Source of the DNA: Carnobacterium sp. CP1
Lineage (GTDB): Bacteria > Bacillota > Bacilli > Lactobacillales > Carnobacteriaceae
NCBI RefSeq assembly: GCF_001483965.1
Contig: NZ_CP010796.1
Coordinates: 1,612,001-1,676,000, forward strand
Length of the DNA: 64,000 bases
Direction: 5' to 3'
Shown here: piece after piece, positions 56,126 through 60,515 of the stretch
Layout: every line of letters begins with the position of its first letter
How positions within the stretch are numbered: position 1 is the stretch's first letter
Notes under the pieces: generated by a model
What the model was told of the DNA's origin: nothing
What the model saw: only the letters and a program-made list of their open reading frames with translations
Databases searched by the model: none
Translations under genes and position numbers: made by a program

Positions 56126-56248
56126 AACGTTAGATTTTTGGTTTGTTTGGTCCACTTTTAATTGAAGGCCTTCTTGTTCTAAGAAATAACTAAACAGTTC
56201 AAGTTCTTCTGCTTCATACTTGCGGTACTCAAAAAGGATTTGCGTACC
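56105..56248 (-). pseudogene. C-terminal gene relic cut by the repeat array
   Basis: An open minus-strand stretch of 47 codons reads ILFEYRKYEAEELELFSYFL, EQEGLQLKVD and ends at TAG 56105-56107 inside the terminator. Upstream the frame stops in the left arm of the palindromic repeat at 56239, so the repeat seems to have replaced the rest of the gene. I do not recognise the family. Confidence 0.45.
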
Positions 56249-56336
56249 TTAAGTTCCATTCGAACCCACTCATAAGGTACGCAACTTGCTTTTGTGTGCC
56301 TTATTTTCTATGTCTATCACACGTTAAGGCACGCAA
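56239..56336. repeat. Array of two palindromic units of the 51-bp family
   Basis: Units begin near 56239 and 56291. Left arms TTTGCGTACCTTAAG and TTTGTGTGCCTTA pair with ATAAGGTACGCAA and TTAAGGCACGCAA. The centres differ. They match the arms at 37109-37260. The remaining 55963-56238 and 56337-56470 hold only the terminator, the gene relic and AT-rich DNA. Confidence 0.8.
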
Positions 56337-56470: not shown

Positions 56471-56499
56471 TTGACATAAATGTTTTAACAGAGTATTAT
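56471..56499 (+). promoter_or_regulatory. Sigma-A promoter of the flavinylation cluster
   Basis: TTGACA (56471-56476) and TATTAT (56494-56499) are 17 bases apart. The predicted start is near 56506, upstream of the 39-codon frame and the regulator gene. Confidence 0.75.
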
Positions 56500-56555
56500 A
56501 AGTGTGTAGAAGATATGTGAATAAAATCACAACAAAAAAGGGATGTGTTATCGAA

Positions 56556-56675
56556 ATGGGAAGATTAAGCGAAAACCTTCATAAATCCTTTGGTAGACGT
56601 GACTTGGCCATTCTAAGAAAAGAGTCAATAGTAGCTATCTTGAATTATTTCTTTATCGATGTAACCGGTTATTAA
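56556..56675 (+). CDS. Short ORF (39 residues) between promoter and regulator
   Basis: MGRLSENLHKSFGRRDLAIL starts a basic peptide with a hydrophobic end (SIVAILNYFFIDVTGY). It starts 50 bases after the predicted transcript start; the ribosome site is poor. The PlcR/Rgg-like regulator follows 49 bases later. Such regulators often respond to short peptides encoded next to them, so this may be a signal-peptide gene; no secretion signal is evident. It may equally be chance. Confidence 0.35.
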   Translation: MGRLSENLHKSFGRRDLAILRKESIVAILNYFFIDVTGY

Positions 56676-56724
56676 AACAAACAAACTCAATAACGAACAA
56701 GTTAACAAACATTGGAGGAACAGC

Positions 56725-57606
56725 ATGAACATTGAGAGATTTATTGAAGCGCGTAAAGCGACAGGGTTTTCTCAAGTAGAATTAGCTGAAGGCATTTGTA
56801 CTCAAGCAACCTTAAGCCGATTTGAAAATAATGGACAAGTCCCCAATTTGAAAATACTGATCAAACTTTGTAATCGTTTAGGACTTCCATTAGCTGATTT
56901 ATTTCCAAGAGTGGGAATCAGGTATACAGAGACGATTGAAACGATGAACAAAGCGGAGTTTTTCCTTGTTACCAGCGAATATGAACAAGCAGCAGCTTTG
57001 CTTAATACTATTGCTGTCAACACGATTGCAGATTCTATTTTATCCTTGCGTTACTTTTATTTAAAAGGGTTTATCATGATTTTTCAAAATTGTGCTATCA
57101 CGGATATTTTGTTCAACTTTGACAAAATCTTATTAGCAGAAGATACCGATGATTCGGAAATTTTTCGATTATTAGCGTATACCGGAACTGGGATGGTTTA
57201 CTTTCGCGAAGCGGATCAAGAAAAAGCCGAATTTTATTTTAATAAAGTTCTTGAACAAATTTATTCTTATGAAACAACGGAATTAGCAGATACTTGGCGA
57301 GTTCTTAATATCGTCTTTCAATGCAGTGTGTTTTACGCTGAAGTTCATGAACTAGAAGCAAGCAATACGTTGTTGAAGTATGCTATATCAATTTGCTCAG
57401 ATAATCACGTAACGTTCTATCTTGCACGAGCCGCTTTCCAGTTAGTCAAAAATGCCGTTAGTCAGAATGAATCAAAAGAACATATTTTAGAATTAGTCTA
57501 TGATGCTAGGGCTTATGCCAAAATCAATAAAAATTATGTTTTGCTCAGAGAGCTGGCTGTACTAGAAAAAACGGTATTGTCTCGTAGCGGTGAAAATAAA
57601 CTGTAA
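56725..57606 (+). CDS. PlcR/Rgg-like HTH-TPR transcriptional regulator
   Basis: The 293-residue protein has an N-terminal XRE helix-turn-helix, EARKATGFSQVELAEGICTQ and ATLSRFENNGQVP, then TPR-like helices (about 70-285), for instance LLAYTGTGMVYFREADQEKA. The layout is that of PlcR/PrgX/Rgg-type regulators, which bind peptides through the repeats. GGAGG lies before the ATG. It heads a unit with apbE and the two FMN-reductase genes and probably controls it. The ligand is unknown. Confidence 0.85.
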   Translation: MNIERFIEARKATGFSQVELAEGICTQATLSRFENNGQVPNLKILIKLCNRLGLPLADLFPRVGIRYTETIETMNKAEFFLVTSEYEQAAALLNTIAVNTIADSILSLRYFYLKGFIMIFQNCAITDILFNFDKILLAEDTDDSEIFRLLAYTGTGMVYFREADQEKAEFYFNKVLEQIYSYETTELADTWRVLNIVFQCSVFYAEVHELEASNTLLKYAISICSDNHVTFYLARAAFQLVKNAVSQNESKEHILELVYDARAYAKINKNYVLLRELAVLEKTVLSRSGENKL

Positions 57607-57650
57607 CGATTTGTTAGCAACATTCTTTAGAAGAAAAGAGGCGATAACAG

Positions 57651-58589
57651 TTGGATCAAAAACGAAGAGTCATTCATTTGATGGGAACCGTCATTGATTT
57701 ATTGGTTCAACACGAAACTCCTGATTTAGTATTAGACGAGTTGGTTACTCGATTAAAGGAATATGAACACCGCTTTAGTGCAAATGATCCAAGCTCTGAG
57801 TTAATGGCCATCAATAAAAATGCCGGGTTCCAACCCGTTTCTGTCCATCCTGACTTATACCAATTGATCAAAATTGGGAAACACCACAGCTGTTCTCCAG
57901 CCAGCAACCTAAACATTGCTATCGGGCCATTAGTTCAAACGTGGCGTATTGGTTTCGATGACGCTAAAGTTCCTGCAGCAGAAGACATTCAACTCCTGCT
58001 CAAAAAAACAGACCCACAAAACATTGTCTTAAATGACGAAGCCCAAACGGTTTTTTTAAGAGAACCTGGCATGCTGATCGATTTAGGTTCTTTAGCAAAA
58101 GGCTTCATCGCCGATTTGCTGATCGATTATTTAAAAAGTGTCGGTACCTTATCTGCTTTGATCAATCTAGGCGGAAACATTGTGGTTTTAGGCCCTTCGC
58201 CTACTAATAAAGACCGTCATTGGAAAATTGGTATACGGCGTCCTGGGCCCTCTCGCGATCAATCGATGGTTGCTTTAAAAGCTTTGAATCAATCCATCGT
58301 CACCTCAGGTATTTACGAAAGAAGCCTGAGCGATAACGAACAAACGTATCATCATATTTTGGACCCACATACGGGCTATCCAATAGAAACCGATGTTGCA
58401 AGCTTAACAATTGTTTCCGACAAATCGATCGATGGCGAAATATGGACGACTCGTTTATTTGGAAAATCGTCTGAAGAAATTATGCATATCTTAAATCAAT
58501 TAGAAGGCATAGACGGATTGGTCATTACAAAAGAAGTAAAAATGCTCTATTCCGCTGCATTAGAAGACAAAATCATCAAAATGAATTAG
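57651..58589 (+). CDS. apbE: FAD:protein FMN transferase ApbE, without signal peptide
   Basis: The 312-residue protein has ApbE motifs: the MGTVIDLLVQH start, DLGSLAKGFIADLLIDYL, SALINLGGNIVVLGPSP, VTSGIYERSL and HHILDPHTGYPIETDVASLT with metal and FAD ligands. ApbE moves FMN from FAD to a Ser/Thr of a target protein. Most ApbE are exported lipoproteins; this one starts QKRRVIHLMGTV without a signal, so it acts in the cytoplasm. It begins with TTG 9 bases after AGAGG. The genes behind encode a protein with three possible target sites. Confidence 0.93.
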   Translation: MDQKRRVIHLMGTVIDLLVQHETPDLVLDELVTRLKEYEHRFSANDPSSELMAINKNAGFQPVSVHPDLYQLIKIGKHHSCSPASNLNIAIGPLVQTWRIGFDDAKVPAAEDIQLLLKKTDPQNIVLNDEAQTVFLREPGMLIDLGSLAKGFIADLLIDYLKSVGTLSALINLGGNIVVLGPSPTNKDRHWKIGIRRPGPSRDQSMVALKALNQSIVTSGIYERSLSDNEQTYHHILDPHTGYPIETDVASLTIVSDKSIDGEIWTTRLFGKSSEEIMHILNQLEGIDGLVITKEVKMLYSAALEDKIIKMN

Positions 58590-58632
58590 TTTATTGCTTA
58601 CACTAAAAACATTACTGAAAGGAAGTACCAAC

Positions 58633-59241
58633 ATGAAAAAAATTATTGGTTTAGTTGGAACAAATTCAGATCACTCTACTAATCGGATGTTATTGCAGTT
58701 TATTCAAAAACATTTTTCAAATCAAGCACAGATTGAAGTGGTTGAAATCAAAGATCTTCCCCTATTTAACAAACCAGAGAACAAACAATTGCCTGTTAGC
58801 GTTCAAGAATTGGCTAAAAAAATTGAGGATGCTGACGGTGTGATCATTAGTACGCCAGAATACGACCACTCTGTTCCTGCATCACTGATCAATGCTCTTA
58901 ACTGGCTTTCATACGGCATATTCCCTTTTGTGGATAAACCCGTTATGACTACTGGAGCTTCTTACGGAACACTTGGTTCTTCAAGAGCACAAATGCATTT
59001 GCGCCAAATCCTCGACGCTCCAGAATTAAAAGCTCGTGTCATGCCAAGTTCTGAATTTTTATTAAGCCATTCTTTACAAGCTTTTAACGAAGACGCCGGC
59101 TTGATCGATTTCGAACAAATTGAAAAGCTAGAAGGACTGTTTGAAGATTTCCAAATTTTTATGGACATCACCAACCAATTAAAAAGCGCACACGCTATCA
59201 ACAAAAAAGAAGCTGAAAGCTTCTCATGGGAAAACCTTTAA
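58633..59241 (+). CDS. NAD(P)H-dependent FMN reductase-like protein
   Basis: The 202-residue protein has the flavodoxin-like FMN-reductase fold: KIIGLVGTNSDHSTNRMLLQ with the phosphate loop, EVVEIKDLPLFNKPENK, DGVIISTPEYDHSVPASL and VMTTGASYGTLGSSRAQMHL. It binds FMN and uses NAD(P)H. It is a paralogue of the N-terminal half of the next protein, sharing SSRAQMHLRQILDAP/SSRAQLHLRQILDAP. The ATG at 58633 has AAGGAAG upstream. The genes overlap or adjoin within 20 bases, so the two products are made together. Confidence 0.9.
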   Translation: MKKIIGLVGTNSDHSTNRMLLQFIQKHFSNQAQIEVVEIKDLPLFNKPENKQLPVSVQELAKKIEDADGVIISTPEYDHSVPASLINALNWLSYGIFPFVDKPVMTTGASYGTLGSSRAQMHLRQILDAPELKARVMPSSEFLLSHSLQAFNEDAGLIDFEQIEKLEGLFEDFQIFMDITNQLKSAHAINKKEAESFSWENL

Positions 59242-59261
59242 AGAATAGGAGACGAAAGAAA

Positions 59262-60515
59262 ATGAAATTAGTCGGTATTGTAGGATCTAACGCAGAAGTA
59301 TCATATAATCGTTTATTGTTAAAATACATTGCTAAACAATTTGGTCATTTGTTCGAATTAGAGGTACTAGAAATCAAAGACATTCCGTTGTTCAACCAAA
59401 GCGATGACCAAACAAGCAGCCCTGCTATTCAAAAGATCAGCAACAAAATCTTAAGTGCTGATGGCGTCATCATCGCTACACCTGAACACAACCGCACCAT
59501 TCCCGCTGGTTTAAAGAGCTTATTGGAATGGTTATCGTTTAAAATCCATCCATTAGAAAACAAACCCGTCATGATCGTTGGCGCATCTTATTACGATCAA
59601 GGTTCTTCTCGCGCACAACTGCACTTGCGTCAAATTCTAGATGCTCCTGGTGTTAATGCGATGGTCCTGCCCGGTAATGAGTTTTTATTAGGCAAGGTAA
59701 AAGAAGCTTTTGACGAAAATGAAAATTTAAAAGATCAAAATACAAGCAACTTTTTAGAAAGCTCTTTGCAAAAATTCATCCAATTTATCAATGTTGTGTC
59801 TTTATTAGAAGGTCCTAAACCAAAACCTGCTGAACCAGAAGATTTGCATGCAACAGGAACTTGCGACACAACCATTGAAGGCGTCGATATGTCTGCTGAG
59901 GATTGGGTCGAGCGAGCTGCTGAAGCCGTTAACGCTGTCGAAGGAAAAGCCTATGTTAAATTAAATCGCGGAATCCTTACCGTTGATCAATTGAATTACT
60001 TCTTAGCGTCTATGCCGATGGAATTAACATATGCTGACCAAAACAACCAGTTCTTATACTACAACCATACAAAACCTGGCAGTGAGATGTTAGCGTCTCG
60101 TGTACCTGGACAAGCAGGAAACCCGTTGGCAAATTGCCACCCAGAAAAAGCATTGAAAAATGTTGAATGGGTTATTCAACAACTGCGTTCAGGAGAACAA
60201 GATGCTGTCCGGGTTCACGTGCCAACACACGGACCAGATAAATACGTCGTTCATAATTACCAAGCCATGCACGACGAAGAAGGCAACTATGTCGGAATCA
60301 ATGAATTCATTTTAGACTTCAAACCAATCATCGACTGGTATTTAAAACAAACCAAACAAACGTTGGTTGGAGATGTCGATGCAGTATCAAGTGCTTCTAC
60401 TAAAGAAAAAGAAGAAGTAGACAGTGTTTCAAGTGCTAGTGTTACCGAAAGCGAAGAAGAAGTTCCAGTAGCTGTAGCCGTAGACAGCGTTTCGAGTGCT
60501 TCTGTTAAGGGATAA
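59262..60515 (+). CDS. FMN-reductase-PAS protein with three predicted flavinylation motifs
   Basis: The 417-residue protein has an FMN-reductase-like domain (1-180: KLVGIVGSNAEVSYNRLLLK, GVIIATPEHNRTIPAGL), a hinge (PKPKPAEPED), a PAS_10-like domain (about 225-365) with LASMPMELTYADQNNQFLYY and NCHPEKALKNVEWVIQQL, and an acidic tail. The tail carries DAVSSAS (373-379), DSVSSAS (387-393) and DSVSSAS (408-414). ApbE targets have D-x-x-[ST]-G/S-A-[ST]; the last residue takes FMN. It has no export signal. I infer a cytosolic redox protein with up to three covalent FMN, modified by the ApbE encoded two genes upstream. Confidence 0.88.
   Translation: MKLVGIVGSNAEVSYNRLLLKYIAKQFGHLFELEVLEIKDIPLFNQSDDQTSSPAIQKISNKILSADGVIIATPEHNRTIPAGLKSLLEWLSFKIHPLENKPVMIVGASYYDQGSSRAQLHLRQILDAPGVNAMVLPGNEFLLGKVKEAFDENENLKDQNTSNFLESSLQKFIQFINVVSLLEGPKPKPAEPEDLHATGTCDTTIEGVDMSAEDWVERAAEAVNAVEGKAYVKLNRGILTVDQLNYFLASMPMELTYADQNNQFLYYNHTKPGSEMLASRVPGQAGNPLANCHPEKALKNVEWVIQQLRSGEQDAVRVHVPTHGPDKYVVHNYQAMHDEEGNYVGINEFILDFKPIIDWYLKQTKQTLVGDVDAVSSASTKEKEEVDSVSSASVTESEEEVPVAVAVDSVSSASVKG

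Follow-up and report, generated by a model that had tools for sequence, protein, structure and literature searches.

A candidate cytosolic ApbE-flavinylated NAD(P)H:flavin oxidoreductase system with an FMN reductase-PAS fusion in Carnobacterium sp. CP1

We identified a four-gene operon in Carnobacterium sp. CP1 whose products, taken together, are best explained as an NAD(P)H:flavin oxidoreductase system of the cytosol that is flavinylated by ApbE, a reading to which we give a probability of about 70%. The operon lies within a 64,000-nucleotide stretch of contig NZ_CP010796.1 (positions 1,612,001 to 1,676,000), referred to here as the window, and its last gene encodes an FMN reductase (FMN_red) fused to a PAS_10 domain and a C-terminal tail with three flavinylation-like motifs. 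A first-pass annotation made from the sequence alone had regarded this layout as unfamiliar, which does not hold against the literature: flavinylation of FMN_red tails has been published (PMC11334425), and a PAS-FMN_red fusion and a heterodimer of two FMN reductases have been on record since 2015 (PMC4500961). The families of the components are known, and each half of the idea is already in print. A literature search found neither the PAS-bearing variant with three sites nor any recognition that the Lactobacillus johnsonii protein LjPAS is probably a substrate of ApbE, and no paper connecting the tail flavinylation of Lactococcus with FRedA/FRedB-LjPAS.

Operon organization

The four genes are intact and lie on the + strand in the order Rgg-like regulator, cytosolic apbE, FRedA-like FMN reductase and FMN_red-PAS_10 fusion (Table 1). 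The start of FMN reductase 1 was placed at ATG 58633, inside an open reading frame opening at 58594, with GGAAG as ribosome-binding site, and that of the fusion at ATG 59262 with AGGAG. Position 56471 corresponds to the -35 element of a sigma-70-like promoter, a type of match that is at least as frequent in shuffled sequences as in this region. No FMN riboswitch or other known RNA reached the gathering score before the operon, nor was there a credible match. In the regulator, the HTH_3 domain is clear and the TPR matches fall below the Pfam cut-off. A 39-aa open reading frame (56556-56675) was considered as the peptide pheromone of this regulator and rejected, since it has a plausible ribosome-binding site but no counterpart in 40 other loci.

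Table 1. Features of the operon, in window coordinates
Feature	Position	Strand	Basis
Sigma-70-like promoter TTGACA-17-TATTAT, in front of the operon	56471..56499	+	Consensus scan, 11/12; consensus match only
Rgg/PlcR-like regulator, 293 aa	56725..57606	+	Pfam HTH_3 3e-11, then weak TPR-like matches
apbE, FAD:protein FMN transferase, 312 aa, TTG start	57651..58589	+	PF02424 7e-73
FMN reductase 1, 202 aa, corresponding to the partner encoded as a separate gene (type FRedA/FRedB or HcrA)	58633..59241	+	PF03358 6.5e-37
FMN reductase 2-PAS_10-flavinylation tail fusion, 417 aa	59262..60515	+	PF03358 8e-37, PF13596 7.7e-29
Candidate flavinylation motif 1, DAVSSAS, residues 373-379	60378..60398	+	Motif scan; conserved in homologues
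Candidate flavinylation motif 2, DSVSSAS, residues 387-393	60420..60440	+	Motif scan
Candidate flavinylation motif 3, DSVSSAS, residues 408-414	60483..60503	+	Motif scan

The operon ApbE scores 245.9 bits against PF02424, for which the cut-off is 25.6. Its nearest solved relative is Listeria FmnB (7ESA, E 3e-66), with which it shares the TSGxYER, YHHILDPxTGYP and DLGxxAKG motifs, and close to the metal site its subfamily has Glu in the DGD/DGE region where FmnB has Asp. The N-terminus has neither a hydrophobic stretch nor a lipobox Cys, in agreement with the lack of a signal peptide first noted for the gene at 57651. The second ApbE of this genome is of the lipoprotein type, with a hydrophobic N-terminus and a Cys. 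It adjoins the only FMN_bind protein of the genome, itself a lipoprotein (match at 1744474-1744734), together with NADH-dehydrogenase-like and prenyltransferase-like genes, an arrangement that resembles the Listeria extracellular electron transfer locus.

The fusion protein was confirmed to combine FMN_red (8e-37) with PAS_10 (8e-29), and FMN_bind (PF04205), a fumarate-reductase domain and FAD_binding_2 gave no Pfam match in it. The AlphaFold model is confident for FMN_red (residues 1-185) and PAS (215-365), while the tail (371-417) has a pLDDT below 50. The tail is probably a disordered or flexible arm, for which a low pLDDT derived from a shallow, gappy alignment is weak evidence. The PAS part matches the structures 2qkp (Z 16.0) and 3cax (Z 14.1), placing PAS_10 within the PAS fold. 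Homology allowed no ligand or cofactor to be assigned to it, since 2qkp and 3cax, its closest relatives of solved structure, are uncharacterised and the other matches are generic PAS domains.

The tail motifs are conserved

With the start at 59262, the three motifs fall exactly at the residues first reported for them. Among all open reading frames of at least 100 aa in the window, the pattern D..[ST][GS]A[ST] is confined to the tail of the fusion. Shuffling the 57-aa tail gives an expectation of 0.007 motifs, against the three seen, and none of 100,000 shuffles produced three. The synonymous codons vary among the three copies, including TCT and AGT at the acceptor serine. Across the whole genome, a DNA scan for the motif gave 29 matches, about as many as a reversed-pattern control (25); among the regions that were read in frame for other targets of the tail type, the only open-frame motifs were the tail triplet and one in an FMN-dependent oxidase-like open reading frame.

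We retrieved 80 homologous loci with peptides from outside the tail, sampled from Carnobacteriaceae, Enterococcus, Streptococcus and some Bacillaceae. Every homologue carries the motifs, always C-terminal of the PAS domain and never in the protein body, in one (7 homologues), two (49), three (23) or four (1) copies, giving 176 motifs where 0.93 would be expected by chance. The linker between motifs diverges freely in length and sequence, and no close homologue in these loci has kept apbE and lost the motifs. Judged by these comparisons, the tail motifs are real and under strong selection. In one relative (L024, genome G059), the tail is degenerate, with DANANAS and DTEASAS, and apbE is unlinked.

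All three window motifs read SSAS and not SGA[ST], and this deviation from the consensus might suggest that the adjacent ApbE serves another target, leaving the tail unmodified, or that the tail only stores or traffics FMN. In a fumarate reductase, replacing the motif Gly by Ala halved flavinylation, and Ser was a poorer acceptor than Thr (PMC12052999). Across the homologues, position 5 of the motif is mostly G (115 cases) or S (61), with 2 cases of A and 1 of D, and 12 of the 80 proteins mix G and S forms within one tail; SSAS therefore behaves as an equivalent of SGAS. Another target would be easier to accept in the many genomes that additionally carry FMN_bind fumarate reductases, and in two Streptococcus genomes with apbE but neither a tail protein nor an FMN_bind protein. 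Nevertheless, we consider this explanation very unlikely. The selection on the motifs is extreme, the sole FMN_bind protein of the window genome has a lipoprotein ApbE of its own, and closely related FMN_red tails are flavinylated by their cognate ApbE (PMC11334425); the plasmid and Streptococcus data given below also speak against it.

Gene neighbourhood and distribution

The small FMN_red partner accompanies the fusion homologue in all 80 loci, in keeping with the suggestion that the second FMN reductase is its partner. In addition, apbE lies within 6 kb in 73 of the loci, and a homologue of the HTH regulator is found at the corresponding position in 40. On an Enterococcus faecium plasmid, all four genes are present between IS1216 copies, with identities of 56-76% (regulator 60%), and 108 plasmid records match at least 80% of the fusion protein; such joint travel of the whole unit speaks against an ApbE serving something else. 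Four genomes of the same genus have no close match, so the operon is patchy at the genus level. In Streptococcus agalactiae, apbE and two adjacent FMN reductase genes drop together in expression (-2.09, -2.11 and -2.12; PMC6224512).

Among 127 Streptococcus genomes, a strong PAS match was found in 105, all of which have apbE, and the three genomes lacking apbE also lack a strong PAS match. In the 68 genomes without an FMN_bind domain, apbE and the PAS match occur together in 63, are both absent from three, and in two apbE occurs by itself (Fisher 2e-4 for the co-occurrence, with no correction for shared ancestry). The 63 genomes with apbE and the tail but no FMN_bind domain again argue against a different target. 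The two genomes with apbE only (G075 and G119) have it at the usual site without FMN reductases or FMN_bind; there apbE keeps its neighbours, genes of the purine and tdk region, which would fit a recent loss of the reductase genes.

Modular rearrangements

FMN_red, PAS_10 and the tail recombine. An 882-aa protein (L113) joins one FMN_red to three PAS units in a row, and each of these four domains is followed by a cluster of motifs, nine motifs in total. PAS-only proteins with motif tails also occur (L115, L116, L117 and L118), and one with a single motif (L147) lies directly beside apbE without an FMN reductase. In another genus of Streptococcaceae (L176, L178 and L180), the motifs are on the tail of a PAS-less FMN_red and a separate PAS_10 gene lies beside apbE. 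What stays constant is a motif tail in a genome bearing apbE, usually next to it, and it is because the modules recombine while the motif tail stays with apbE that we regard the tail as the ApbE target. The proposal that ApbE acts in the cytosol on a tail with several sites gains from motif selection, from apbE linkage and from the flavinylated Lactococcus tails (PMC11334425).

Fusions of about 810 aa with the order FMN_red-FMN_bind-FAD_binding_2 have an N-terminal domain that shares 57-64% identity with the FMN_red domain of the window protein. At one such locus (L114), the same type of FMN_red pair is seen, with a small FMN_red gene beside an FMN_bind-FAD_binding_2 fusion, and in fusions of this kind the same pair may feed a different output module. 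These relationships would fit an enzyme that reduces an organic substrate in the PAS pocket, with PAS in place of the FAD_binding_2 of the HcrB and fumarate-reductase fusions that use the same FMN_red pair. However, catalysis by PAS domains is rare, a conserved catalytic set was not found, and FRedA/B reduced no tested quinone, and we rate this as the least likely of the explanations considered.

Relationship to known systems

The closest parallel is in Lactococcus lactis and L. taiwanensis, where FMN_red tails are flavinylated by the cognate ApbE and the covalent flavin seen on SDS gels is lost on Ser-to-Ala substitution (PMC11334425, Huang 2024). As in the window, these are PF03358 proteins with a C-terminal extension carrying flavinylation-like motifs and a gene near apbE, which here lies two genes upstream. 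The Lactococcus proteins have one or two motifs on an unstructured extension, whereas in the window fusion PAS_10 separates FMN_red from the tail and its three SSAS motifs; the main text of Huang 2024 does not mention PAS. The hydroxycinnamate reductase HcrA/HcrB and related cytosolic fumarate reductase fusions likewise pair a small FMN_red partner with an FMN_red fused to a flavinylated module (PMC10295242), but they carry FMN_bind and FAD_binding_2, both absent from the window fusion. In Klebsiella, as cited in PMC12052999, a cytosolic ApbE without a signal peptide likewise acts on a cytosolic flavoprotein, a soluble fumarate reductase that, in the same account, differs from the window fusion in having another substrate fold and one site.

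In Lactobacillus johnsonii, FRedA and FRedB form an obligate heterodimer with two FMN sites that oxidises NADH and makes H2O2 (PMC4500961, Valladares 2015). FMN is an acceptor substrate with a Km of about 20 uM, and FMN was added to protein made without ApbE (PMC4500961). The same study described LjPAS, a 28-kDa PAS protein, and PAS-FMN reductase fusions in other lactic acid bacteria, named Lp2732 and EF1227; a search of its text found no report of ApbE, a motif or covalent flavin (PMC4500961). The published FRedB and LjPAS primers match one genome (G025) with 0 mismatches, and this exact match identifies LjPAS as L117:15009-15740. Its tail ends with three motifs, DATTGAT, DTATGAS and DTSSGAS, and a signal-less 308-aa apbE is encoded on the strand of fredA, at a distance of about 2 kb and with two genes between. 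LjPAS has PAS_10 (1.4e-20) and is 41% identical to the PAS and tail of the window fusion. The two systems share two FMN_red paralogues of the same family encoded together and a PAS_10 protein, but L. johnsonii has its PAS gene as a separate one, at a distant site from fredAB, and its product was treated as a regulator.

That treatment offers a second way to read the window operon, in which PAS is a true sensor that adjusts how the two FMN reductases assemble or work, and the flavin of the tail does no more than inform PAS of the redox state or stabilise the complex, without carrying electrons. Assembly of FRedA/B was slowed by LjPAS produced in E. coli, pre-incubation of LjPAS with FRedB halved the initial rate, and the LjPAS gene responds to aeration (PMC4500961); PAS_10 does have a PAS fold, and the window operon includes a DNA-binding regulator. 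Yet the LjPAS tested came from E. coli without the cognate ApbE and was presumably unflavinylated, and its effect was gone once the heterodimer had formed with FMN (PMC4500961). Tandem motifs, one to four in the homologues and up to nine in one protein, are needless for a sensor, and PAS sometimes has a gene of its own, with the motifs left on the reductase. A pure sensor role is therefore unlikely in our judgement.

Proposed mechanism

In the flavinylated oxidoreductase that we favour, ApbE would split FAD and attach FMN to the last Ser of at least one D-x-V-S-S-A-S motif, as shown for the Lactococcus relatives. Modification of at least one site is the step we hold most firmly, from motif conservation and this analogy. 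By analogy with FRedA/FRedB, it is only slightly less certain that the fusion would pair through its FMN_red domain with FMN reductase 1 in a heterodimer, which would oxidise NADH via bound FMN. Because FRedA/B treats FMN as an acceptor substrate, the tail FMNs are most likely a tethered form of that free acceptor, carried on a flexible arm that would take electrons at the open FMN sites of the dimer; this role as tethered acceptor or carrier is probable, at a lower level of confidence. The arm could then hand electrons to O2, yielding H2O2, or the PAS_10 domain could provide the ligand or partner that accepts them; O2 as the main physiological acceptor is a tentative suggestion. Several observations weigh against this mechanism: the SSAS form of all three motifs, the Glu in this ApbE subfamily, the two Streptococcus genomes with apbE only, the degenerate tail and unlinked apbE of L024, and the slower FRedA/B assembly with LjPAS.

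Conclusions

In conclusion, the PAS_10 proteins of Lactobacillales with tandem-motif tails, comprising LjPAS and the fusions, may represent a general class of soluble proteins that bear several FMNs. In this broader proposal, which we put at slightly under even odds, the tail would be a tethered substrate arm that makes a free-flavin reductase pair a self-contained electron relay, and many Streptococcus genomes whose apbE would otherwise seem an orphan would have in it their main ApbE substrate or even their only one. If so, LjPAS, published as a regulator of H2O2 in a probiotic, would be re-read from a sensor to a flavin-loaded electron carrier, and the need of recombinant FRedA/B for added FMN would be explained. 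The many streptococcal genomes without an FMN_bind protein (63 of 68 here) would gain a soluble ApbE substrate, and the class as a whole would represent a cytosolic counterpart of the extracytosolic multi-flavinylated proteins.

The cytosolic ApbE subfamily encoded in the window carries DGEIWTTRLF at the position of DGDGLSTATF in FmnB, the Listeria ApbE. Near the metal site, the Asp of FmnB is replaced by Glu, a change common to most of the operon-linked relatives. In genome G059 the tail repeats and an ApbE motif both differ (Table), and it is possible, from the sequences, that enzyme and tail target co-vary there.

The whole cassette is also plasmid-borne in Enterococcus faecium (NZ_CP017793.1), and the fusion protein was matched in 95 plasmid records of Enterococcus. 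Two Streptococcus apbE genes, in genomes that have neither the FMN reductases nor FMN_bind, are still left over as orphans. Upstream of the window promoter lies a long imperfect inverted repeat, for which no Rfam family was reached at threshold.

Among the PAS_10 relatives, a shorter second protein co-occurs with the LjPAS homologue in the same Lactobacillus genomes (L116, L117). The 882-aa protein, with nine flavinylation-like motifs, would be a soluble counterpart to multi-flavinylated proteins.

Table. Features of the window and of related loci
Feature	Locus	Position	Details
Cytosolic apbE	Window	57651-58589	
Inverted repeat	Window	56224-56300	28-nt arms, 79%
apbE, Streptococcus	L173	5636-6571	No FMN reductases or FMN_bind
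apbE, Streptococcus	L174	5415-6350	No FMN reductases or FMN_bind
PAS_10-like protein, 178-182 aa	L116	14250-14795	Single DAESGAS
PAS_10-like protein, 178-182 aa	L117	4217-4750	Single DAESGAS
Regulator-apbE-FMN_red-FMN_red/PAS cassette	L185, NZ_CP017793.1	2286-7959	Flanked by IS1216 copies
Tail-bearing protein, G059	L024	1345-2751	Repeats now DANANAS, DTEASAS, DASASAS
ApbE, G059	L148	5448-6386	TSGVAER replaces TSGxYER
882-aa protein, FMN_red then three PAS_10 units	L113	2500-5145	Nine flavinylation-like motifs
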